Part shown: positions 1-11,106 of the stretch, piece by piece
How the letters are laid out: each line of letters opens with the position of its first letter
Position numbering within the stretch: the first letter of the stretch is position 1
DNA from: Leclercia sp. 29361
GTDB taxonomy: Bacteria; Pseudomonadota; Gammaproteobacteria; Enterobacterales; Enterobacteriaceae
Reading direction: 5' to 3'
DNA length: 64,000 bases
NCBI RefSeq assembly: GCF_011290365.1
Contig: NZ_CP049786.1
Span: 3,100,001-3,164,000, forward strand
Notes under the pieces: model-generated
The model's database searches: none
The model's input: only the letters and a program-made list of their open reading frames with translations
Told to the model about the DNA's origin: nothing
Made by a program: the position numbers and the translations under genes

Positions 1-296
1 TCGATGATGATGTCGCCTTTTTCCAGGTACGGTTTCAGCGAGTCGATGGCTGCATCGGTGCCAGCACCTGCTTTCACCATTAACAGGATACGACGAGGCG
101 TTTCCAGAGATTCAACAAACTCCTGCACCGTATAGAAAGGAACGAGTTTTTTGCCTGGATTCTCGGCAATCACTTCTTCGGTTTTATCACGGGAGCGGTT
201 GAAAACGGAGACGGTATAACCACGACTTTCGATGTTCAGCGCCAGGTTGCGCCCCATCACTGCCATACCGACGACGCCGATCTGTTGTTTGGACAT
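1..296 (-). CDS. gnd: 6-phosphogluconate dehydrogenase, decarboxylating (N-terminal part, cut by window edge)
   Basis: Read on the minus strand from the ATG at 296, the protein begins [20 protein letters not shown], the N-terminal Rossmann dinucleotide-binding motif (GxxxMG) of Gnd. The enzyme oxidises and decarboxylates 6-phosphogluconate to ribulose-5-phosphate with NADP in the cytoplasmic pentose phosphate pathway. Only about 98 of roughly 468 residues are inside the window; the rest lies before base 1. Gnd is the classical conserved gene flanking the O-antigen locus in enteric bacteria, so it marks the distal end of the cluster to its right. Its base composition is clearly less AT-rich than the neighbouring sugar genes. 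Identification is firm. Confidence 0.95.
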
Positions 297-550
297 TACT
301 TACTCCTGTCAGGTGTGGTCACCGCGCAAAGCATGCACGGTTTAAAGTGTATCTCAGATGTTAACCCAGTTAACATCAGAATGAATAGTAGTAATTACTA
401 AACACACTAAACTTAATAAATTTCATACTAACATTTCGGAATGTATGATTTATTAAGCGGTTAAAAAATTTATAAATATCAGAGCAGAGAAACAATCCAA
501 CCTGGTTGTTACGGTAAACTCCGCATGCCAGCAAAGTGCATTGAAAATAT
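297..550. other. AT-rich intergenic region between the O-antigen locus and gnd
   Basis: This 254-base stretch holds the gnd upstream region. It is very AT-rich beyond about 350. A minus-strand reading frame of 60 codons (376-558) overlaps the stop of the neighbouring glycosyltransferase gene by a few bases, but it has no recognisable domain and no clear ribosome binding site, so it is not called as a gene. The gnd promoter must lie here or upstream; no strong -10/-35 pair was assigned. Confidence 0.4.
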
Positions 551-1612
551 TTATGCATGTAAGATTTTGATTATTTCACTTCGTGCTACATGCGTCATTT
601 CCTTATATTTTTGCATGACGCCATAATTAATATCAGCTTTTATCTTTAAATCCTCGCCAGTATACAATCCAGCAAGGAATTCATCTTTAGTGAGATACTG
701 ATATCCTAAAACAGAAAAATCACCAATGTTTTCATGATGAATAATAGGGATAACCCCACATTCCAGATACTCTATTAATTTGGTTGGGCAGGCAACCCTG
801 TTCACCAGAATTTCATCTCGCAGAATAAAACCAAGATGGCTTTCCATAAGGACATTAATGACTTGTTCTTTTGAAAGACTACCTACTTTAATGCCTGCAT
901 TATCAATGACTGCCGAAAATTTTTTCTTGAACATGGGAACTTGTAGTTCAGGAAGAAAAACATTATACCGTTCCTTCCCATCCTTCTCTTTATTATTGAT
1001 TAGCCCCATCATCATATCAATATTTTGCCAGGCTTGGGTTCCTCCGGCATATACGCAATCAAATTCGCTCTCGCTCCATTTTTCGATATTTTTCGTCACC
1101 GCAAGTGATTCAAATATTGGAAAAACCAAAGAGCGTTCAGCTATATTCTCAAAATTATATTTATTTTGAAAGTGATTCTCCATCGCCTTTGTAACATGAA
1201 TTATTTTATGTGCATACTTAATAGCTCGACGCTCAACAACATTAAATAAATGATAGTAAAGTGACTTACCCATAAATTTATGTTCTTCAGGTACAACACC
1301 ATGCACATCAAGGATTAACTTTGAAAAATCCATTACTGGAAATACTTTAAATAGATTAATGACAGAGTGGCAATAAATAAATCTGGCTCTTTTAATTTCT
1401 TCAGTAATTAACTTAAAATGAACAAAGAAATTGATATTCTCTACCCGGCAATTACCGATGGTTACTGATGTCCTACGCATGTTTCGTTTAAAGGAAACAT
1501 TCATATAAACTCGCTCAACATCACTTACTAAACCATCTATTGCAGCAATCCGCTGCATCATCCCATCTCGTATATTTATTTCGGTAGGATAATCAGCAAT
1601 AAAGAGAATCAT
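551..1612 (-). CDS. Predicted O-antigen glycosyltransferase (GT4-like, GT-B fold)
   Basis: This 353-residue protein is probably a cytoplasmic glycosyltransferase acting on the undecaprenyl-linked O unit. Visible features fit a short GT-B/GT4 enzyme: an N-terminal strand (MILFIADYP), a central stretch with DVHGVVPEE and HKIIHVTKAME (residues about 100-145), typical of GT4 proteins before the interdomain linker, and a C-terminal LIEYLECGVIPI segment in the place where GT4 enzymes carry the donor-binding glutamate motif. It is the last O-antigen gene before gnd and follows the wecB-like gene by 32 bases. Strong AT bias suggests horizontal origin. Donor and linkage cannot be read from sequence; ManNAc or rhamnose transfer are both possible. 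Confidence 0.75.
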   Translation of the reverse strand: MILFIADYPTEINIRDGMMQRIAAIDGLVSDVERVYMNVSFKRNMRRTSVTIGNCRVENINFFVHFKLITEEIKRARFIYCHSVINLFKVFPVMDFSKLILDVHGVVPEEHKFMGKSLYYHLFNVVERRAIKYAHKIIHVTKAMENHFQNKYNFENIAERSLVFPIFESLAVTKNIEKWSESEFDCVYAGGTQAWQNIDMMMGLINNKEKDGKERYNVFLPELQVPMFKKKFSAVIDNAGIKVGSLSKEQVINVLMESHLGFILRDEILVNRVACPTKLIEYLECGVIPIIHHENIGDFSVLGYQYLTKDEFLAGLYTGEDLKIKADINYGVMQKYKEMTHVARSEIIKILHA

Positions 1613-1644
1613 AAATAATCCATTGTGTCAGAGCAAATATAAAA

Positions 1645-2772
1645 TTAGTGTGCGTTTGCAAGAGCATCTAAGATGCGTTCTGCGGCATTGCCATCACCGT
1701 AAGGATTGTGGGCGTGTGACATTTCGCTGTAGAAAACAGCATCATCCAGAAGTTTTTTCATACCGCTGAATATTGCTTCACGACTCGTACCAACCAATCT
1801 AACTGTTCCCGCTTCTACAGCCTCAGGACGTTCGGTTGTATCCCTCATTACAAGCACAGGCTTGCCGAGTGATGGGGCTTCTTCCTGAACACCGCCAGAA
1901 TCAGTCAAAATAAAGTAAGAGCGATCCATAAAGTATACAAAAGGAAGATAATCGAGCGGTTGAATCAGGAAAATATTTGGCTCCGAACTGAGTAATCTAT
2001 TAACGGGTTCTTGCACTTGTGGATTGAGGTGAACCGGATAAACAAAATTGGTATCAGGAAACTGTCTTGCGACATCCTTGATTCCCTCACAAATATTTTC
2101 AAACCCCTTTCCAAAACTTTCACGACGATGCCCCGTGATGAGCACCAAACGTTTATCATTCTGCAAGAAATTATATTTAGAATGGATTCCCTGTTGAAAA
2201 CCAAGGTCCGCTTTAATAAGTTCTTTGGCCAAAAATAAAGTATCAACTACAGTATTCCCGGTAACAAAAATGCTGTCATCCGGGACATTCTCTTTGAGTA
2301 AATTTGATCGTGAGGTTTCTGTAGGCGCAAAGTGTATTGAAGCTAAAGCACCAGCAACTTTTCTGTTACCTTCCTCAGGCCACGGCGAAAGTAGATTGCC
2401 AGTTCTGAGGCCAGCTTCCACATGTCCAACTTTAATTTGATTATAATATGAAGCAATTGTACATGCTAAAGTAGTCGAGGTATCGCCATGGACAAGGACA
2501 TAATCAGGCTTGTAGTTTTGTAATACCTCGGAAAAACTGATTATCATTGATGCTGTCAAATCAACCAGTTGCTGACCACGTTTCATTAAGTTCAAATCGT
2601 AATCTGGCGTAATGGAAAAAATTGAAAGCACCTGGTCAAGCATTTCGCGATGTTGAGCAGTTACACAAACTTTATAGTCAAAACGGACATCATTTTGAAT
2701 CTTCTTTATAAGCGGTATCATTTTAATTGCTTCTGGACGTGTACCAAACACTAAAAGAATTTTCTTAGACAT
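1645..2772 (-). CDS. wecB: UDP-N-acetylglucosamine 2-epimerase (non-hydrolysing), O-antigen copy
   Basis: The product interconverts UDP-GlcNAc and UDP-ManNAc in the cytoplasm. It carries the family hallmarks VFGTRPEAIKM near the N terminus, GDTSTTLA and GHVEAGLRTG at about residues 95-120, GHRRES near 210 and the TDSGGVQEEAPSLGKPVLV signature near 290. The ATG at 2772 is preferred: it gives the usual MSKKILLVFGTRPE start and lies 4 bases after the wzx stop. A TTG four codons upstream (2784) would overlap wzx. This is probably a second epimerase beside the wecB of the enterobacterial common antigen locus (outside the window). No UDP-ManNAc dehydrogenase (wecC) accompanies it, so the O unit may contain ManNAc rather than ManNAcA. 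Confidence 0.9.
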   Translation of the reverse strand: MSKKILLVFGTRPEAIKMIPLIKKIQNDVRFDYKVCVTAQHREMLDQVLSIFSITPDYDLNLMKRGQQLVDLTASMIISFSEVLQNYKPDYVLVHGDTSTTLACTIASYYNQIKVGHVEAGLRTGNLLSPWPEEGNRKVAGALASIHFAPTETSRSNLLKENVPDDSIFVTGNTVVDTLFLAKELIKADLGFQQGIHSKYNFLQNDKRLVLITGHRRESFGKGFENICEGIKDVARQFPDTNFVYPVHLNPQVQEPVNRLLSSEPNIFLIQPLDYLPFVYFMDRSYFILTDSGGVQEEAPSLGKPVLVMRDTTERPEAVEAGTVRLVGTSREAIFSGMKKLLDDAVFYSEMSHAHNPYGDGNAAERILDALANAH

Positions 2773-2776
2773 ATTA

Positions 2777-4036
2777 TCACTCAACTTTATGTAGACTAAC
2801 TAATTTGTTAACTTTACTTATCAGTAAAATAGTTAAACTTAATTCACCAATGAACATCGATACTGCAGCGCCAACATTTTGCCAATAATTTATAAGTACA
2901 ATCATTAATATTAATGTAAAAATAGCTACGCATTTAAAACTATTGCTATAGCTCCGGCTGTGGCCTGCAGCACTTAACGTTTGAATACCAAGAATATTAT
3001 TTAATACACTAAAAAACATCCAAAGAGTCAGAAGAGTTGCAATTTGCAAAAATCCTGCAATCTTATTTTCCACCCAATAAAAATGATAAAAAAGCATTGC
3101 TATAATTATAAATAAACTTCCCAGCGCAGCAAGTACCATAATTGGCTTGGCTGTTTTATTAACAGAATTCAAACCAGAAGATATGGATTCTTTAAATTTA
3201 TTACAATTATAAGGATAAACTGACTGAGTTAAAGGAGCAAATAATGATGTAAATGCCTTAATAACTCTTTCAATCGTAGCATAGGCACCTACAATGACAG
3301 GATTAGTCATAATTCCTAAAAGGAATACAGCACTATTACTTAGTATCACGGAATATAGGGTTGCGGTAAACATGCTCCAGCCAGCAGCTAATTCTTCTTT
3401 CACAAAACTTATCTTTGGTATTGTATTTTGCACTTCTTGCTTATAAACCGGGATAAGTATTGCAATCAGTGCACATACCAAAGAAGGAACAGACTGACAA
3501 ATTAATGCAATGTTGATATCATTTTTGTTTTTGACAAATAACAAAACGAGGGCGCATGAAAATGCGCGAGATATTAAATTTAAAAAAGCAATTGGTTTAA
3601 GATTTTCTTTTCCCTGGTAGTACCAAATTGGTAAAAAAGAGTTACCGAGAACGAGAAGATAGGCAAAAATCAATGCTTCTTTTAATACATCATCATTAAC
3701 CAAATAGCTAACTATGAAATAATAAAAAGGAAATATGACAACAGCTAGCAAAATTTTAATACTGATTGTCATCCAAAACACATTAGAGACTAAATTTTTA
3801 TTATCTCTGTTCTGAGATATCGCACGGCTTGAGGTAAATGAAAACCCGTAATCTATTACAACTTGTATATATGCTGCAACAGCAAGGCAGACTGCATATT
3901 TTCCAAATCCATCAATCCCGAGATTTTTTATTAAAAAGCCCAAAATTAATAGCGGGGAAATATATGTAATTCCCTGCGTAATGAGCATGTAGCCAGAGTT
4001 CCTAATGACCCTTTTTATTTCTACATCATCAAGCAT
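2777..4036 (-). CDS. wzx: O-antigen flippase Wzx
   Basis: This 419-residue, highly hydrophobic protein has about 12 predicted membrane segments and the layout of the polysaccharide-transporter (MOP/PST) family. The N terminus has the RNSGYMLITQGITYISPLL pattern common in Wzx, and the middle has charged loops between helices. It would move undecaprenyl-diphosphate-linked O units across the inner membrane to the periplasm. It starts 3 bases after the wzy stop and ends 4 bases before the wecB-like start, so translation is probably coupled. Its pairing with the predicted Wzy next to it supports a Wzx/Wzy-dependent pathway. The family call is solid; the sequence is serotype-specific and would be useful for O-typing. 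Confidence 0.88.
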   Translation of the reverse strand: MLDDVEIKRVIRNSGYMLITQGITYISPLLILGFLIKNLGIDGFGKYAVCLAVAAYIQVVIDYGFSFTSSRAISQNRDNKNLVSNVFWMTISIKILLAVVIFPFYYFIVSYLVNDDVLKEALIFAYLLVLGNSFLPIWYYQGKENLKPIAFLNLISRAFSCALVLLFVKNKNDINIALICQSVPSLVCALIAILIPVYKQEVQNTIPKISFVKEELAAGWSMFTATLYSVILSNSAVFLLGIMTNPVIVGAYATIERVIKAFTSLFAPLTQSVYPYNCNKFKESISSGLNSVNKTAKPIMVLAALGSLFIIIAMLFYHFYWVENKIAGFLQIATLLTLWMFFSVLNNILGIQTLSAAGHSRSYSNSFKCVAIFTLILMIVLINYWQNVGAAVSMFIGELSLTILLISKVNKLVSLHKVE

Positions 4037-4039
4037 TCG

Positions 4040-5101
4040 TTACCACCACTCCAGAACAGTATGATATGGCTGTATTATTTTAGTTGTTGAGAAAAACATG
4101 ACAAAGGAAAAACCTATTAGCATTGTTTTATATAACCATACACTATTATTTTTCATAAAAAGCAAAGGCATTACAAACATAGCCATATCAAATAATCCCA
4201 ACACCTCAACCATTCTTAATGAAAGAACGCTATTCCATGCAAATGCAGCATTAAAGAAAAGGCTTGTCGAAGAGAAAAACAATACAAGTTTTTGGATGTT
4301 ATTTGTATGTTGATACAACTTTAAGACAATAAAATAGAAGACAGCCATTCTGGTTAAATAATAAAATGACAGTAGTGAGATTGCACCTGCTTCGTCAGTA
4401 TCTATATAAACCATGATTCTCTGCGAATCAATAAACATTAATAAAAGGCTTGATACTCCTCCTGAAAAAATACCCAATACAGGAATAAGAAGTAGCATAA
4501 AACGTTTATTTAAAGCAGGCCAGTTGTTACGTACCAATAGGAATAGAGGAATGATAATCACTGAAACATGTATAGATATTGCAATAACAAAGAAAAACAG
4601 CGATTTGAATCTTTCGCCATTAAGCAGAGTCATTGCCGCGTATGATGCAATTGCAATCGCCAAACCAGCGCGTACTTGTGTAAGTTCATGAACTAAATAA
4701 AACCGCGATATAATAAGAATAAATATTAATGCGGCAAAATTCCCAAATTGCAGTTTTGAAGCGAACTTAGCTTTGACAGCTAATGCAATAAAACCTGCCA
4801 CAAAGAAAAAAAACCATGGTTGCTCTGTTATAAAAGCCAAAGACTTGTATAACAGAACAAAGCCAATGTCTTTCTTTTGTTCAACCGCAACCCAAAACTC
4901 ATTATTTATGAGTTCAAACCAACTAATATAATTTAAATAATCGCGATCTACTCCCTCACCACGAAGTGAGGCAAAAAGCGAAAGTAATAACAGAAACGTT
5001 GCCCACAGAAAAAACCCGAAATTTTTATCACGGCTATTAAAGAAAGTTATCGCTTTTGTGGAGATCAAACTTAACAGATAAGTTAAATAATATGCCGTCA
5101 T
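4040..5101 (-). CDS. wzy: Predicted O-antigen polymerase Wzy (EpsG-like)
   Basis: This 353-residue protein has about 10 hydrophobic segments and a large polar loop. The early SLRGEGVDRDYLNYISWFELI segment resembles the conserved RxxxVGtDtxnY region of EpsG/Wzy polymerases. It would join O units in the periplasm. Wzy proteins share little sequence, so the call rests on topology, size, the N-terminal motif and position: directly upstream of wzx, with its ATG overlapping the stop of the preceding transferase gene (ATGA). No other polymerase candidate occurs between galF and gnd, which strengthens the inference. The linkage it forms is unknown. Confidence 0.8.
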   Translation of the reverse strand: MTAYYLTYLLSLISTKAITFFNSRDKNFGFFLWATFLLLLSLFASLRGEGVDRDYLNYISWFELINNEFWVAVEQKKDIGFVLLYKSLAFITEQPWFFFFVAGFIALAVKAKFASKLQFGNFAALIFILIISRFYLVHELTQVRAGLAIAIASYAAMTLLNGERFKSLFFFVIAISIHVSVIIIPLFLLVRNNWPALNKRFMLLLIPVLGIFSGGVSSLLLMFIDSQRIMVYIDTDEAGAISLLSFYYLTRMAVFYFIVLKLYQHTNNIQKLVLFFSSTSLFFNAAFAWNSVLSLRMVEVLGLFDMAMFVMPLLFMKNNSVWLYKTMLIGFSFVMFFSTTKIIQPYHTVLEWW

Positions 5102-6012
5102 TTGAAATAGCCTTTACCCATATTATTTCGCATCCCATCTAATGCTGCTCTGCTTAATAATTTCATGGAATAAAACTTACTCTTAGATAACAGAGAGAAG
5201 AGTATAATATAATAAGGGACCTTAAACAGCATTGAGAAACGTAATTTCAGACGAAGGCCCTTATCCTTGGACAGGTACACTGCATTTCTTACAATAAAAT
5301 AATTCCTGAAATCTGAGTGCAAATAGATTGTTTTTCCAAGTATATTCGCATGCTCATCACCAATGCTATGTTTCATAATGACATTTTGAGAAACGAAGGA
5401 ATAACAATTATTCACGCGACATCTTTCTCCCCACTCAATATCTACCCAATCGATAAATAATTCTTCTCTCATTAGACCATATTTATTGAGAACATCTACC
5501 CTGATGAGAGAACCTGAGGCGATAATGTAATCACTATGCAGTGGCTCATTTGTACCACTATGACTTTTTCGTTTGGTTCTGAGGAATGATGCTTCTACCG
5601 CAGAAACTGACTCATTCGTTTTCTGATCAATATATGATGGCCCTATTGCTGCTACTGACACACCCTTAGACAGTAAACCAGCCTCTTCTGAGAGTAGTCC
5701 TTCAACCATTTTCTCAGGTAAGATACTATCCTGATCCAGGAGTAAGACGTGAGAAGCATTACTGTCTTTCGCCATTTTTATGCCGACATTTTGTGCGGCT
5801 GCAATACCGACATTATCAAATAGAGGAACGTATTGCGTTCTCTGACCGAATTTAATAATGAGCTTTTCTATTTCTTTGACTTGTGGGTCAGGTGTATTAT
5901 CGATGATCAGGATTTTTTCGACTTGCTCAACAACGCTATCGAGTAATAAATTTAGAACATCATATTCAGGCTTGAATAAGATAATAATGGCAATTACTTT
6001 ATTATTGTTCAT
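5098..6012 (-). CDS. GT2 glycosyltransferase, rhamnosyltransferase family
   Basis: This 304-residue protein has a GT-A fold N terminus: IAIIILFKPEYDVLNLLLDSV, then IIDNTPDP, a conserved DNVGIAAAQNVGIKMA block (about residues 65-85) and LLLDQDS (about 91-97), the DxD-type metal/nucleotide site. WVDIEWGERCR near 190 matches the acceptor-side (E)D-containing motif. This pattern is characteristic of the rhamnosyltransferase family that includes Salmonella RfbN-type enzymes, so transfer of L-rhamnose from dTDP-rhamnose to the lipid-linked O unit is likely. The gene overlaps wzy by four bases. A C-terminal hydrophobic stretch (about 250-270) may attach it to the membrane. The exact donor is inferred. 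Confidence 0.8.
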   Translation of the reverse strand: MNNNKVIAIIILFKPEYDVLNLLLDSVVEQVEKILIIDNTPDPQVKEIEKLIIKFGQRTQYVPLFDNVGIAAAQNVGIKMAKDSNASHVLLLDQDSILPEKMVEGLLSEEAGLLSKGVSVAAIGPSYIDQKTNESVSAVEASFLRTKRKSHSGTNEPLHSDYIIASGSLIRVDVLNKYGLMREELFIDWVDIEWGERCRVNNCYSFVSQNVIMKHSIGDEHANILGKTIYLHSDFRNYFIVRNAVYLSKDKGLRLKLRFSMLFKVPYYIILFSLLSKSKFYSMKLLSRAALDGMRNNMGKGYFK

Positions 6013-6169
6013 AGCTAATCAATTAATACTCTTATATGACTACATTGTTATGCTGCGCAGCCGCTTTTAGATAATTATATATTATCCAGGCGATTCACTT
6101 AAGACAATCAAAATTTGTTTCTGCAAATACAAACAAAGTATCTTTAATTTAGTTATAATTCACAATATG
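6013..6169. other. AT-rich spacer between two O-antigen glycosyltransferase genes
   Basis: This is a 157-base noncoding gap inside an otherwise tightly packed cluster. It contains no convincing reading frame, terminator or known repeat. Its length and AT-richness are compatible with a junction between gene blocks of different origin, which is an inference. Confidence 0.4.
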
Positions 6170-6925
6170 TTAAAAATATCTTTTCACCATAAAAGTTATT
6201 ACACTTTTTAAATGCCAATAAAAATGTTTAGAAATGATAGCTCTGTTTGCATGTTTTGCTAAATGAACAGCGGTGACATCAGGGTAATAGATCACTGGTG
6301 AATTTATTTTGTATGACCGGTAGCAGATATCAATATCTTCACAATACATAAAATATCTTTTATCAAAACCCTTAAGCGCAGCATAATGGCTAGCTTTAAA
6401 TACAAGGAATGACCCCGCTGCCCAATCTACACATTGTGGTTCTTTTATCGAAAGCTTATTATATTTGGTGGTATTTTTCTTAAAAACAAATGAATTAAAG
6501 AAATGAATTAAATTTGGAAATTTCCTTATCGAATCGTCTGAAATTGTTCTCTCGTCATCTTTGAAAAGATTTATTGCTACTAAATTAGCATTATCCTTGA
6601 TCAGATGATTTTGGAGTCTTGTGAAGTCAGCATCTCCAATTTTTACATCAGGATTCATGACAATAAAATAGTCATCATCCTGCAGATTCAGTTTATTTCT
6701 GCAATGGTTGAAAACATAATTATTGTTTTCTCCAAATCCCAGGCTAAAACTTTCAGCCAATAAATGAATCCCATGCATTTCACAGTACGACGAAAGTGCC
6801 GGATAATCTTCCGGATTATTACATTTTAATACGACAATGTTTTCTTTCGCCAAATATGGAAGTGCGTTAATTTCTTTTATTAATTCAGCATGTCCATGTG
6901 ATATTACGCTAATGTAATTTCTCAC
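6170..6925 (-). CDS. wbbL: WbbL-like rhamnosyltransferase (GT2)
   Basis: The protein (about 251 residues) resembles E. coli WbbL, which adds L-rhamnose to GlcNAc-diphospho-undecaprenol as the second step of O-unit assembly. Shared landmarks are ISVISHGHAEL at the start, SLGFGENNNYVF, YFIVMNPDVKI (about 95-105, metal-binding region), SIRKFPNLIHFFNSF, VDWAAGSFLVFK, FMYCEDIDICYR (about 200-211) and the terminal RAIISKHFYWHLKSV. GTG at 6925 is preferred because a GGAG lies five bases upstream and the resulting MRNYISVISHGH aligns with WbbL; a TTG at 6943 is possible but weaker. It follows rmlA, in keeping with rhamnose use. Symbol is by similarity. Confidence 0.82.
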   Translation of the reverse strand: MRNYISVISHGHAELIKEINALPYLAKENIVVLKCNNPEDYPALSSYCEMHGIHLLAESFSLGFGENNNYVFNHCRNKLNLQDDDYFIVMNPDVKIGDADFTRLQNHLIKDNANLVAINLFKDDERTISDDSIRKFPNLIHFFNSFVFKKNTTKYNKLSIKEPQCVDWAAGSFLVFKASHYAALKGFDKRYFMYCEDIDICYRSYKINSPVIYYPDVTAVHLAKHANRAIISKHFYWHLKSVITFMVKRYF

Positions 6926-6930
6926 GTTTA

Positions 6931-6934
6931 CTCC
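6931..6934 (-). promoter_or_regulatory. Shine-Dalgarno GGAG that favours the GTG start of the WbbL-like gene
   Basis: On the minus strand GGAG lies five bases before GTG (6925-6923). The alternative TTG (6943) would place this GGAG inside the coding sequence and has no comparable upstream purine run, so the GTG is the better start. Confidence 0.65.
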
Positions 6935-6973
6935 AAAATTCAAACTTTAAAAATTACGCACTAAAAATAAATA

Positions 6974-7846
6974 CTATTTGACCAAGCCTAAAAGATATTT
7001 ACCATATGCATTCTTGGATAATACGGTTGCTAATTTTAATACCTGCTCTGCATCAATAAACCCTTTGCGATACGCAATCTCTTCCGGACAAGCCACCTTC
7101 AGCCCCTGACGCTCTTCAATCGTCGCAATAAAGTTACTTGCTTCAATCAGGCTCTGATGTGTACCGGTATCCAACCAGGCGAAACCGCGTCCCATCATGG
7201 CAACGGAGAGGCGACCCTGCTCCATATAAATACGGTTGATGTCTGTAATTTCCAGTTCACCACGCGGAGACGGCTTAAGGCTTTTCGCCATCTCAACAAC
7301 GCTGTTGTCATAGAAATAGAGCCCCGTAACGGCGTAATTACTTTTTGGTTCAACCGGTTTTTCTTCGAGGCTGACAGCAATACCGTCTTTATCAAACTCA
7401 ACGACACCATAGCGCTCAGGATCGTTGACGTGATAAGCAAAGACGGTAGCACCGCTTTCTTTACTTACCGCGGAGTCCATCAACTTCGGCAGATCATGGC
7501 CATAGAAGATGTTGTCACCCAACACCAGCGCACAATCGTCCTCACCAATGAACTCTTCGCCCAGGATAAAGGCCTGTGCCAGACCGTCCGGACTCGGCTG
7601 GACTTTATACTGCAGGTTCAGGCCCCACTGACTGCCATCACCCAGCAATTGCTCAAAGCGTGGCGTATCCTGAGGAGTACTTATAATCAGAATGTCGCGA
7701 ATACCCGCCAGCATAAGCGTGGACAGCGGGTAGTAAATCATCGGCTTGTCATAGATCGGCAGCAGTTGTTTGCTGACAGCCATAGTGACCGGGTACAGAC
7801 GAGTTCCTGAGCCACCGGCTAAAATAATCCCTTTACGCGTTTTCAT
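6974..7846 (-). CDS. rmlA: Glucose-1-phosphate thymidylyltransferase
   Basis: RmlA (RfbA) condenses glucose-1-phosphate with dTTP to dTDP-glucose, the first step of dTDP-L-rhamnose synthesis. The 290-residue product has the nucleotidyltransferase signature [11 protein letters not shown] with the following [20 protein letters not shown] near residue 110, and [20 protein letters not shown] near 160-180. Size and sequence are typical for the enterobacterial RmlA. It follows rmlD after a 52-base gap holding a hairpin. The usual fourth gene, rmlC, is not next to it. Confidence 0.96.
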
Positions 7847-7868
7847 TTCATCATCTCTATATGTGCAA

Positions 7869-7888
7869 AATGCCCGTAAACGGGCATT
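7869..7888 (-). terminator. Hairpin between rmlD and rmlA, possible attenuator
   Basis: A perfect 9-bp inverted repeat (AATGCCCGT / ACGGGCATT) with a 2-base centre lies in the short rmlD-rmlA gap. On the minus strand it is followed by TTGC rather than a long U run, so it is at best a weak terminator; it could be an RNA-stabilising or processing element within the operon. Confidence 0.4.
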
Positions 7889-7898
7889 AAATTTAAGG

Positions 7899-8798
7899 TC
7901 AGACCGCAGTAGTCGTAAACAGCTCAGCCAGCATACGTTTTACGCCGATATCCCATTGAGGTAATACCAGATCAAAGTTTTGCTGGAATTTTTCCGTGTT
8001 CAGACGGGAGTTATTTGGGCGAAGTGCAGGGGTAGGATAAGCACTGGTAGGTACCGCGTTGAGCTTAGTAATCGCCAGTTCAATGCCAGCCTTACGCGCT
8101 TCGTCAAATACCAGCGCGGCGTAGTCGTGCCAGGTGGTCACGCCACCTGCAACCAGGTGATAGAGCCCTGCGACTTCAGGTTGTTTCATAGCCACACGAA
8201 TCGCATGCGCCGTGCAGTCTGCCAACAGTTCAGCGCCTGTTGGTGCACCAAACTGATCGTTGATGACCGACATCTCCGCGCGTTCTTTGGCAAAACGCAG
8301 CATGGTTTTGGCAAAGTTATTCCCTTTGCCCGCATAAACCCAGCTGGTGCGGAAAATTAAGTGGCGTGCACAATTTTCCTGAAGAGCTTTTTCACCGGCG
8401 AGTTTGGTTTCGCCATACACATTCAAAGGTGCAGTGGCATCCGTTTCTCGCCACGCATTTTCACCATCACCCGGGAAAACGTAATCAGTAGAATAGTGCA
8501 CAACCCAGGCACCGATTTTTTCAGCCTCTTTGGCAATGGCTTCCACGCTTGTGGCGTTCAGCAACTGCGCGAATTCGGGCTCAGACTCGGCTTTATCTAC
8601 GGCGGTATGGGCCGCCGCATTGACGATGACATCCGGCTTAATGCGGCGCACGGTTTCAGCAATACCTTCAGGATTACTGAAATCACCGCAATACTCGGTA
8701 GAGTGAACATCGACGGCAATCAGGTTACCTAGCGGGGCGAGCGAACGCTGCAGCTCCCAACCCACCTGCCCTGTTTTGCCGAACAAAAGGATATTCAT
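7899..8798 (-). CDS. rmlD: dTDP-4-dehydrorhamnose reductase
   Basis: RmlD (RfbD) reduces dTDP-4-keto-L-rhamnose to dTDP-L-rhamnose with NAD(P)H, the last step of the pathway. The 299-residue extended short-chain dehydrogenase starts with the nucleotide-binding [14 protein letters not shown], has [12 protein letters not shown] near 60-72, STDYVFPG near 105 and the catalytic YGETK at about 128-132. Its ATG overlaps the rmlB stop by one base (TAATG). Its usual substrate comes from the RmlC epimerase, whose gene is absent from this locus. Confidence 0.95.
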
Positions 8799-9883
8799 TA
8801 CTGACGTTCCCCGTAGTTCTGTTCAATCCAGGATTGATAGTTACCGCTTTTCACGTTCTCCACCCACTGGGTGTTGGCCAGATACCACTCCACCGTTTTG
8901 CGGATCCCGCTCTCGAAAGTTTCCTGCGGCTTCCAGCCTAACGTCTGGCTAATCTTATCGGCATCGATGGCATAACGACGGTCATGGCCCGGGCGGTCAG
9001 TTACGTAGGTAATTTGATCGCGATATGAACCCTCTTTCGGCACAATTTCATCAAGCAGATCGCAGATGGTATGAACCACATCGAGGTTTTGTTTCTCGTT
9101 GTGGCCGCCGATGTTGTAGGTCTCGCCTGGCTGACCCTGAGTTACCACGGTATAGAGCGCACGGGCGTGATCTTCAACATACAGCCAGTCGCGGATCTGA
9201 TCGCCTTTACCGTAAATCGGCAGCGCTTTACCGTCCAGCGCATTCAGGATCACCAGCGGGATCAGTTTTTCCGGGAAGTGGTAAGGACCGTAGTTGTTCG
9301 AGCAGTTGGTCACGATGGTCGGGAACCCGTAGGTACGCAACCAGGCGCGTACGAGGTGATCGCTGGAGGCCTTCGAGGCTGAATACGGACTGCTTGGCGC
9401 ATAGGCCGTCGTCTCGGTAAACAACGGCAGCTCAGTAGACGCTGGGTGTTCATCCGGGTGAGGCAGATCGCCATACACTTCATCGGTGGAGATGTGGTGG
9501 AAACGGAATGCTTTCTTCGCCTCTTCGCCAAGCGTTGACCAGTACGCACGGGCCGCTTCAAGCAGGACGTAGGTGCCGACGATATTGGTCTCGATAAAGG
9601 CAGCCGGACCGGTAATGGAACGGTCAACATGGCTTTCCGCCGCCAGATGCATCACCGCATCAGGTTTGTGCTCGGCAAAAATGCGGTCCATCGCTGCTTT
9701 ATCGCAAATATCAGCATGCTCAAATGCGTAACGCGGGCTGGCGCTCACGTCAGCCAGAGATTCCAGGTTACCTGCATAGGTCAATTTATCGACATTAACG
9801 ACTTCATCCTGAGTGTTTTGAATAATATGTCGGACAACCGCAGAGCCGATAAAACCAGCACCGCCAGTAACAAGAATTTTCAC
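8798..9883 (-). CDS. rmlB: dTDP-glucose 4,6-dehydratase
   Basis: RmlB (RfbB) converts dTDP-glucose to dTDP-4-keto-6-deoxyglucose with bound NAD. The 361-residue protein shows the Rossmann motif [15 protein letters not shown] at the N terminus, [12 protein letters not shown] near 80-92, STDEVYGDL (about 133-141, catalytic Asp-Glu) and the [10 protein letters not shown] catalytic Tyr/Lys site near 167-171. It is the first gene of the O-antigen operon behind the JUMPstart leader. A paralogue (rffG) normally exists in the ECA locus, outside this window. Confidence 0.96.
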
Positions 9884-9914
9884 GCGTTATTTTCCGTAGA
9901 TTGAATAGTTCAGA

Positions 9915-9953
9915 CACGCTACCGCCCCTGGCTTAACAGCTACCAGTGCACTG
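9915..9953 (-). promoter_or_regulatory. JUMPstart element with ops site, O-antigen operon leader
   Basis: The minus strand reads the 39-base JUMPstart sequence, starting CAGTGCACTGGTAGCTG and ending in the ops core GGCGGTAGCGTG (9926-9915). In E. coli ops pauses RNA polymerase and recruits RfaH, which allows long polysaccharide operons to be transcribed through. It lies about 30 bases ahead of rmlB, in its transcribed leader. Confidence 0.92.
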
Positions 9954-9963
9954 AACGTGGTTC

Positions 9964-9969
9964 ATAATA
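9964..9969 (-). promoter_or_regulatory. Candidate -10 box of the O-antigen operon
   Basis: The minus strand has TATTAT about 10 bases before the JUMPstart element, so transcription could start just ahead of it. The matching -35 region is poor. The remaining 10-kb-distal bases up to the galF terminator are AT-rich and show no gene. Confidence 0.4.
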
Positions 9970-10124
9970 GAGATATGTTGTCGCCTGACCCCGGCAAAAT
10001 GGCGCCAGATCAGCGTTCAAGTCAATTAATAATTGTCGTCTTAAATGCCAGCAGAAACAAGGGAAAAAAACAGGCTAACAAGACAAAAAAGCAGCAATTA
10101 ACTGACTGAAATTTAAGAAAATAT

Positions 10125-10189
10125 TTAAAAAGAAAACGGCAGTGTCATTCTCATGGCCTATGAAAGCCTGGAATGATCCACTGCCGTTT
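10125..10189 (-). terminator. Rho-independent terminator of galF
   Basis: Downstream of galF on the minus strand an 11-bp perfect stem AAACGGCAGTG / CACTGCCGTTT (10179-10189 with 10134-10144) encloses a loop with a further TCATTC/GAATGA pairing, and is followed by a T-rich run (TTTTCTTTTT). This is a good intrinsic terminator separating galF from the rmlB promoter. Confidence 0.8.
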
Positions 10190-10209
10190 AGTCAACGACC
10201 AACCAATCG

Positions 10210-11106
10210 TTAATCGTTGGTTAATAGTTTCTTCATGCTTTCCCGGAACTTCTGCCCTTCTTTCAGGTTACGAAGGCCATACTGAACAAAGGCTTGCATG
10301 TATCCCATCTTCTTACCGCAGTCGTAGCTGTCACCGGTCATCAGCATGGCGTCCACAGACTGCTTATTCGCCAGTTCCGCGATAGCATCCGTCAGCTGAA
10401 TACGATCCCAGGCGCCTGGCTCGGTACGCTCCAGCTCAGCCCAGATTTCAGCGTTGAGTACATAGCGACCGACAGCCATCAGATCGGAGTCGAGCGTCTG
10501 CGGCTGATCCGGTTTCTCAATAAACTGAACGATACGGCTGACCTGACCTTCTGAATCCAGCGGCTCTTTGGTCTGAATAACCGAGTATTCGGACAGATCG
10601 CCCTTCATGCGCTTCGCCAGCACCTGGCTGCGACCGGTTTCGTTGAAACGGGCAACCATAGCGGCAAGGTTGTAGCGCAGCGGATCGGCAGAGGCGTTAT
10701 CCAGAATGATGTCCGGCAGAACAACCACAAATGGGTTATCGCCGACCACAGGACGCGCGCACAGAATAGAGTGACCGAGCCCAAGCGGTTGCGCCTGGCG
10801 AACGTTCATAATGGTCACACCTGGCGGGCAGATGGACTGCACTTCCGCCAGCAGCTGACGCTTAACGCGCTGCTCCAGAAGGGCTTCAAGTTCGTAGGAG
10901 GTGTCGAAATGGTTTTCCACCGCATTCTTCGAAGAATGGGTTACCAGAACGATTTCTTTGATCCCTGCAGCAACAATCTCGTCGACGATGTACTGAATCA
11001 TCGGCTTGTCAACGATCGGCAGCATCTCTTTAGGAATGGCTTTTGTGGCCGGGAGCATATGCATGCCCAGACCGGCTACCGGAATAACCGCTTTCAAATT
11101 AATCAT
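10210..11106 (-). CDS. galF: GalF, UTP-glucose-1-phosphate uridylyltransferase-like protein
   Basis: This 298-residue protein is a GalU paralogue found next to enterobacterial O-antigen loci. It begins [34 protein letters not shown]: the usual GxGTRxxP of active GalU reads GLGMHMLP here, the hallmark of GalF, which is thought to have little catalytic activity alone and to modulate GalU and UDP-glucose level. IVQFIEKP near 195 belongs to the sugar-binding region. It stands alone between the colanic acid operon end and the O-antigen leader, with its own terminator and a likely promoter. Confidence 0.96.

Follow-up and report, generated by a model that had tools for sequence, protein, structure and literature searches.

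The O-antigen locus of Leclercia sp. 29361 lacks rmlC, and the only rmlC of the genome lies in a kps capsule locus

Results

rmlC is absent from the O-antigen locus

The subject of this study is a 64,000-nucleotide stretch of the genome of Leclercia sp. 29361 (source genome G000, positions G000:C1:3100001-3164000; hereafter the window, whose positions are given without prefix). The window opens inside gnd and carries on its minus strand an O-antigen locus bounded by galF, in which both wzx and wzy are present. Of the canonical four-gene rml set of a Wzx/Wzy O-antigen locus, rmlB, rmlD and rmlA are found at the galF side and rmlC is not in the cluster. It is very probable, judging from the sequences described below, that this locus, which encodes three of the four dTDP-L-rhamnose enzymes, relies in trans on the single rmlC that the genome has, located in a kps capsule locus.

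Open reading frames (ORFs) and curated model scores bear out the initial annotation, made from the sequence alone, in that rmlB, rmlD and rmlA are intact and adjacent (Table 1). The RmlB model with the higher score is a subfamily model (NF007490), and RmlB stays below the cut-off of another dehydratase model, NF007582 (633.4 vs 698). RmlD passes both dTDP-4-dehydrorhamnose reductase equivalogs and aligns over 299/299 residues (E 4.6e-177) with the chain of structure entry 1kbz, which we take to be RmlD of S. Typhimurium. The statement that no RmlC-like gene lies between galF and gnd likewise held in family searches and in tblastn. Profile searches gave zero RmlC family matches among the remaining ORFs between gnd and rmlA, and a permissive tblastn search of window positions 1-11106 with RmlC gave no trace of the gene, the best E value being 1.9. 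When ten O-locus stretches (from eight clade genomes described below, the E. coli plasmid p21AR0133D and the kps carrier RIT693) were searched for rmlC remnants by tblastn, none was found under E 0.1 in any of them. A hidden or decayed rmlC inside the O locus is ruled out by these searches.

The single rmlC lies in a capsule locus

The genome is a single contig of 4,943,774 bases, 100% complete. A six-frame search of it with PF00908 (RmlC) retrieved one match, G000:C1:655938-656453, in a capsule locus 2.45 Mb from the O locus. Thus, of the options left by the initial annotation, the one placing rmlC elsewhere was correct. The specific place it had proposed, immediately beyond gnd, which would have made this a simple relocation, is ruled out by the genome search and by gene reading of the 10.9 kb past gnd, where ugd, a UDP-sugar epimerase gene, wzzB and the his operon are found (genes named by eye). 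Chance or an assembly artefact is also ruled out, since the genome is on one contig and the same state is seen in seven more genomes with intact rmlD.

The RmlC protein is intact; among solved structures, 1dzr is the closest to it (283.8 bits). His at 63 and Asp at 170 (1dzr chain numbering), which we take to be catalytic residues, are conserved in the RmlC alignment. The gene closes a complete rml block in the order rmlB-rmlD-rmlA-rmlC-kpsC-kpsS. Upstream of this block there are genes for a glycosyltransferase, UDP-glucose dehydrogenase, a putative rhamnosyltransferase (PF11316) and a large double-glycosyltransferase protein; further upstream two long ORFs are followed by kpsE/T/M/D-like export genes at the other end. 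In the part upstream of rml, where group 3 loci have a conserved block of three glycosyltransferase genes (wckUVW), there are transferases of 687, 332 and 501 residues, with ugd between the last two. KpsC and KpsS both score over the PF05159 cut-off; with NCBIfam models KpsS is under its cut-off (387.4 vs 600) and KpsC has no match at 1e-30. KpsE reaches 449.3 bits with TIGR01010 (cut-off 437.5), KpsM is below its model's cut-off (146.8 vs 300), and Poly_export, ABC2 and ABC domains were found among the export genes. By its gene content the capsule locus is a group-3-type, subgroup 3B-like kps locus of the ABC (ATP-binding cassette) transporter kind. In all ten clade kps loci that were read with flanks, it is bordered by homologues of genes that we take to be btsT and yjiA, not by serA. 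Between the O and kps loci, RmlA is 87% identical, RmlB 86% and RmlD 77%; because of these values, the two rml sets are regarded as old and not as a recent duplication.

The full 9-base ops core that precedes rmlB in the O locus (Table 1) was not found upstream of the kps operon, the sole match in that stretch (L095) being more than 5 kb away. A shorter ops-like core, GCGGTAGC, is present upstream of the operon (L095 10614-10621). It is suggestive of shared RfaH control and is too short for such control to be claimed. RfaH is reported among the candidate genes for the K96 group 3 capsule (PMC13410964).

As for the distribution of this capsule module, kps-type rmlC (at least 90% identity) was detected in 28 of the 5,426 E. 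coli genomes searched, and 22 of the 28 places are on plasmids. A kpsC-linked rmlBDAC block is also present in Aeromonas simiae, A. australiensis and A. veronii (L055, L056, L057), with rml products 83-96% identical; A. veronii has an additional rmlC fragment with stops (G070:C2:38095-38334). The KpsC search also leads to Aeromonas and Pluralibacter loci. The block in Aeromonas suggests wide transfer of the kps-rml capsule module.

The split is found throughout a Leclercia/Silvania clade

The genus survey covered 61 genomes, of which 38 have an RmlC match and 29 an RmlD over the cut-off. Capsule_synth proteins (KpsC/KpsS, E <= 1e-20) were detected in 11/61, i.e., in the window's genome and 10 relatives. 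We read the O loci of these 11 genomes and the kps loci of 10 of them, the eleventh, G001, having a kps remnant that was also read; in 19 other genomes the rml loci were read. The 29 RmlD genomes comprise eight clade genomes with O-locus rmlD, two (Silvania G023 and G026) with rmlD only in kps, and the remaining 19, from which G055 was left out (its contig stops inside rmlA, it has no rmlC match and the assembly is 86% complete), so that 18 loci were readable.

In the Leclercia/Silvania clade, rmlC is absent from the O locus in 8/8 loci with intact rmlD, and all eight genomes have rmlC in kps. In the genus genomes without kps, rmlC shares a locus with rmlD in 18/18 readable loci: it is directly after rmlA in 10, ca. 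1 to 4 kb further in three (G014, G050, G058), and the other five (G013, G021, G032, G048, G052) have another gene order, with rml beside gnd in three. The association between presence of kps and absence of O-locus rmlC gives a Fisher p value of 6.4e-7, to be read with the genomes not being phylogenetically independent. In a galF tree of 24 genomes, all 10 usable kps genomes fall to the same side of one branch (support 100/99). The group without O-locus rmlC has support 89/38 in the RmlD tree, where the long branch of G048 is unreliable, and 86/80 in the RmlA tree, which is compatible with one origin. G001 (broken assembly) and G013, G021, G032, G052 and G055 (outside the input set) were left out of the trees and of the selection analysis below; G002 is missing from the kps rmlC set, and the kps rmlB set, which kept three rows, probably because of an N-terminally extended query, was unused.

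Ten of the 61 genomes (G007, G008, G015, G024, G025, G031, G033, G037, G043, G057) have an RmlC match and no RmlD over the cut-off; their RmlC may serve another sugar.

A family survey of 391 sampled genomes, each at least 98% complete, gave an RmlC match (E <= 1e-30) in 158 and an RmlD match (E <= 1e-55) in 150; counting matches in this way, with a separate threshold for each protein, gives a rough measure. RmlD matches outnumber RmlC matches in only four of the 150 RmlD genomes: G000 and G005, both of this clade, G179, where one of the two RmlD genes sits in an rmlBADC block, and G229, whose lone RmlD-like gene is 38% identical to that of the window, the 19.5 kb read around it being without a match to rmlA, rmlB or rmlC. 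The reverse excess was seen in 12 genomes. Another kps carrier, RIT693, has rmlBDA followed 7 bases on by a flippase-type gene, and one rmlC in the assembly; it resembles a second case and was not counted, since its O locus lies on two contigs and is interrupted by a gap.

O-locus rml genes are conserved next to exchanged serotype cassettes

The rmlC-less O loci (the eight and G001) fall into four cassette types: G000 with G002, G001 with G004, G003 with G053, and G005 with G012 and G045. No serotype gene is common to all four at >60% identity and >80% length, and the sole sharing between types is one gene of ca. 370 residues that G003 has with G005 and G012 (66-67%). A fifth cassette, also without rmlC and with a flippase gene after rmlA, is carried by plasmid p21AR0133D of E. 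coli; from galF to rmlA, this plasmid and G001 are 98.7% identical. As can be seen in the 26.8 of 52.5 kb read of this plasmid, the order is wcaL-wcaM-galF-rmlBDA-serotype genes-manC-manB, with insertion sequences on both sides (L124 6194-26459). Since the types share almost no serotype genes, the part downstream of rmlA that determines the serotype must have been exchanged more than once, and none of these loci regained rmlC. Judged from the sequences, the split of rmlC from the O locus is old.

In a comparable E. coli O locus, of which the part seen includes rfbD-rfbA, rfbC (rmlC) directly follows rfbA, and its wzx, epimerase and glycosyltransferase products are 44%, 58% and 45% identical to those of the window. 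Among the matches listed, E. coli relatives of the serotype genes are partial, at 65-68% identity; the best serotype-gene place was 90-95% identical in 425 E. coli records counted, none of which is among the matches listed.

Over the 28 pairs formed by the eight clade genomes, the ratio of nonsynonymous to synonymous substitution rates (dN/dS) is 0.026 for O-locus rmlB, 0.037 for rmlD and 0.033 for rmlA. The highest value for any pair is 0.111 (in rmlA), and for rmlD, whose mean dS is 0.63, it is 0.049. The three genes are thus under strong purifying selection and appear to be functional.

rffG and rffH are missing from the common antigen operon

With E <= 1e-40, RmlB matches in the whole genome were limited to the O-locus and kps copies, and for this reason the operon of the enterobacterial common antigen (ECA) was examined. 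According to PMC7439462, RffH and RffG are the counterparts of RmlA and RmlB in common antigen synthesis. In the wec operon of G000 (near G000:C1 4,744,750-4,746,700; L119 983-2919), wecC overlaps wecD by one base, and rffG and rffH are absent. The pair is missing in 3/3 clade genomes read (G000; G003, L131/L132; G005, L141), with wecD directly after wecC. It is present between wecC and wecD in five genus relatives (L147-L151), which were chosen for an RmlB away from galF and are not a random sample; the matches listed hint that much of the genus may also be without rffG and rffH. Since the pair is missing, ECA synthesis should depend on the O-locus or kps rmlA and rmlB for its dTDP-4-keto-6-deoxy-glucose, and this need would explain why rmlB and rmlA are kept next to galF. 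Probably, then, three polysaccharides share one scattered dTDP-sugar pathway.

Weighing of the alternatives

The ECA result opens a different explanation for the genes of the window, namely that rmlD is a relic: the O antigen of the clade would lack rhamnose, rmlB and rmlA would be kept for ECA, and rmlD would be carried along between them. In line with this, rmlB and rmlA do have another job where rffG and rffH are missing and only O and kps RmlB are present, and in Silvania G023 and G026, which have no intact O-locus rmlD, rmlB is retained while rmlD is absent or decayed. In G026 a broken rmlD relative in two overlapping pieces (50-52% identity, no 150-residue ORF) lies behind an intact rmlB (L019 2824-3605). 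However, O-locus rmlD is intact in 8/8 loci and strongly constrained, whereas the broken copy in G026 shows that rmlD does decay when it is unneeded, and we therefore consider a relic very unlikely.

Alternatively, the O locus could make a different dTDP-6-deoxyhexose without RmlC, by 4-reduction of dTDP-4-keto-6-deoxy-glucose with an RmlD homologue of shifted specificity. The lack of rmlC in all eight readable clade O loci with intact rmlD would fit this, and no Leclercia O-polysaccharide structure was found in the open-access literature searched. Against it, RmlD aligns end to end with 1kbz and passes both reductase equivalogs, no second reductase or aminotransferase was recognised in the O locus (one gene of which has no family match), and one of the transferases, gtA, passes the rhamnosyltransferase model TIGR01556. 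The initial annotation had taken two transferases for rhamnosyltransferases; this stands for gtA, and gtB matches the general family 2 model only. A different deoxyhexose is very unlikely on these grounds. An unrecognised epimerase of the O locus standing in for RmlC, for which the 353-residue product of 551-1612 with no family match might be considered, is extremely improbable, as that product is 45% identical to an annotated glycosyl transferase of an E. coli O locus that also has rmlC, no serotype gene is common to the four clade cassettes at the thresholds given above, and a true RmlC is encoded in the genome. Since RmlD matches 1kbz over its length, gtA passes its model and a genuine RmlC exists, the options of another 6-deoxyhexose and of another epimerase, both left standing by the initial annotation, are disfavoured.

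Several observations weigh against dependence of the O locus on the kps rmlC. Because the galF tree groups the kps genomes and the RmlD and RmlA trees are compatible with it, the genus pattern may go back to a single event instead of eight. In Kluyvera cryocrescens and Enterobacter cancerogenus M004, a kps rmlC is accompanied by a second rmlC beside another rmlD; a kps rmlC does not force loss from the O locus, and redundancy is tolerated in both. Conservation of rmlB and rmlA alone is no proof of rhamnose, since the common antigen also explains their retention, and O-locus rmlD is redundant with kps rmlD, so that its conservation needs reasons of expression or dosage. Finally, the assembly of G001 is without any rmlC, and its O locus has rmlA, rmlB and a fragmented rmlD. 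Its kps remnant and the identity of its galF assign this genome to the clade, and the assembly is 78% complete with several split genes. Its state may be an artefact or that of an O-antigen-negative strain; if the gene loss is real, G001 should be O-antigen-negative. In the kps locus of the same poor assembly (L093 9937-15751), kpsE follows within ca. 400 bases of kpsS, and kpsC, the glycosyltransferase genes and rmlBDAC are gone.

Organization of the O-antigen locus

The features of the locus are listed in Table 1. Best matches to galF are 93-99% identical in the other 59 of the 61 genus genomes showing galF, G044 being without it. The names JUMPstart and ops for the element upstream of rmlB are our presumption; the 9-base core occurs three times in the window, against 0.6 expected. 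The product of the last gene is 45% identical to a gene annotated as glycosyl transferase family 2 in an E. coli O locus.

Table 1. Features of the O-antigen locus between gnd and galF (window positions)
Feature	Position	Strand	Evidence
galF, 5' boundary of the O-antigen locus	10210..11106	-	ORF
Presumed JUMPstart element with ops core GGCGGTAGC at 9918-9926, upstream of rmlB	9915..9953	-	read from sequence
rmlB	8798..9883	-	TIGR01181 511.1 bits (cut-off 365.1); NF007490 767.3 (cut-off 649)
rmlD, dTDP-4-dehydrorhamnose reductase	7899..8798	-	NF007440 630.8 bits (cut-off 308)
rmlA, glucose-1-phosphate thymidylyltransferase	6974..7846	-	NF012024 639.7 bits (cut-off 588)
Gap of 30 bases from rmlA to the next ORF; position of rmlC in 10/18 readable loci of relatives; no remnant	6944..6973	-	
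gtB, family 2 glycosyltransferase, TTG start uncertain	6170..6943	-	PF00535 24.5 bits (cut-off 23.3)
gtA, rhamnosyltransferase-type family 2 glycosyltransferase	5098..6012	-	TIGR01556 213 bits (cut-off 200.55)
wzy, O-antigen polymerase, EpsG family	4040..5101	-	PF14897
wzx, O-unit flippase	2777..4036	-	PF01943
Non-hydrolysing UDP-GlcNAc 2-epimerase, wecB/mnaA type	1645..2784	-	TIGR00236 501.6 bits
Last O-locus gene, 353-residue product, probable glycosyltransferase	551..1612	-	0 family matches
Start of gnd, 3' boundary	3..296	-	complete in extended stretch L003

Discussion

From the gene content we infer the following pathway, including the activities of the enzymes, expression of kps rmlC together with the O antigen, and rhamnose in the O antigen. 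RmlA and RmlB from either locus would make dTDP-4-keto-6-deoxy-glucose, part of which would go to ECA via WecE and WecD. The kps-encoded RmlC would epimerise the remainder, RmlD of either locus would reduce the product to dTDP-L-rhamnose, and both the capsule and the O-antigen rhamnosyltransferase(s) would draw on this sugar nucleotide. As to the direction and order of loss, the ancestor of the Leclercia/Silvania clade, having a kps rmlC, would no longer have needed the copy in the O locus. A single loss of O-locus rmlC is probable, and the serotype exchanges that followed, with their junction after rmlA, would not have restored it in the loci read. We also lean, by a modest degree, towards a broader proposition, that the acquired group-3 capsule locus has become an obligate supplier of the envelope, providing rmlC for the O antigen and, with O-locus rmlA and rmlB, replacing rffG and rffH.

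Split rml sets are known. The O2 and O66 clusters of Plesiomonas shigelloides have rmlBDA at the 5' end and no rmlC, which the authors propose to be elsewhere on the chromosome (PMC6467956). The Leclercia locus is similar in that rmlBDA are in identical order and rmlC is off the cluster and present elsewhere on the chromosome, where in Leclercia it was found; it differs in that rmlC has been located, is the sole copy, lies in a capsule locus, and that the split has been traced through a clade. In E. coli O clusters, rmlBDAC are together in 49, and part of the set is separated or missing in 30, with rmlC displaced by inserted genes in eight and only two genes (rmlDA, rmlBA) in others (PMC4732683). 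Leclercia shares the canonical rmlB-D-A order with these clusters; unlike them, its locus is wholly without rmlC, and a three-gene rmlBDA set is not named in the available part of that survey.

The plan of the locus that holds rmlC is the same as that of the E. coli group 3 (3B) kps loci, in which kpsC/kpsS adjoins rmlBDAC and the transport genes are at the opposite end; chromosomal 3B-like clusters were already listed in Leclercia by Hong and colleagues (PMC10433991), that of Leclercia sp. W17 (CP031101.1) being listed as one without rmlBDAC. In E. coli group 3, a place near serA is a consensus feature on chromosomes, and most 3B clusters are on plasmids (PMC10433991). In contrast, the Leclercia locus is beside btsT-yjiA and not serA, and a link to the O locus is not discussed in the available part of that article.

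Sharing of dTDP-rhamnose genes between loci, as in Leclercia, has parallels in the Klebsiella pneumoniae O7 cluster, for which only rmlD and rmlC are named (PMC11231755), and in the E. coli K96 capsule, where rmlB did not seem to be required, its role being covered by the ECA copy in the view of the authors (PMC13410964). For O7 and K96, however, ECA-type RmlA and RmlB can be supplied from outside, whereas the enzyme missing in Leclercia is RmlC, which ECA cannot supply. In Klebsiella capsules, rhamnose followed the rml genes of the same locus, the K65 locus being without rmlB (PMC4616057). In the open-access literature searched, with subscription literature mostly outside the search, there was no report of an off-locus rmlC in Leclercia or of an O-antigen locus tied to a kps rmlC. 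What is new is thus a form of off-locus rmlC that is clade-wide, located and under selection, together with its common-antigen side.

Serotype prediction usually reads sugars from one locus; here the O antigen would be miscalled, because a capsule gene megabases away probably completes the rhamnose pathway. The case is a worked example for the precedent in which a missing rmlC was only presumed to be elsewhere. It suggests that fixation of a second copy allows an O locus to remain without rmlC while its serotype changes several times. If the dependence on kps rmlC is true, a strain whose capsule locus is deleted or replaced would lose its O antigen as well, and two antigens that are treated as independent would be tied. 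If the capsule locus is indeed an obligate supplier, three unlinked polysaccharide loci would be metabolically interlocked: a strain losing the capsule rml block would at the same stroke lose its O antigen, and serotypes could be exchanged at the O locus without involving rmlC.

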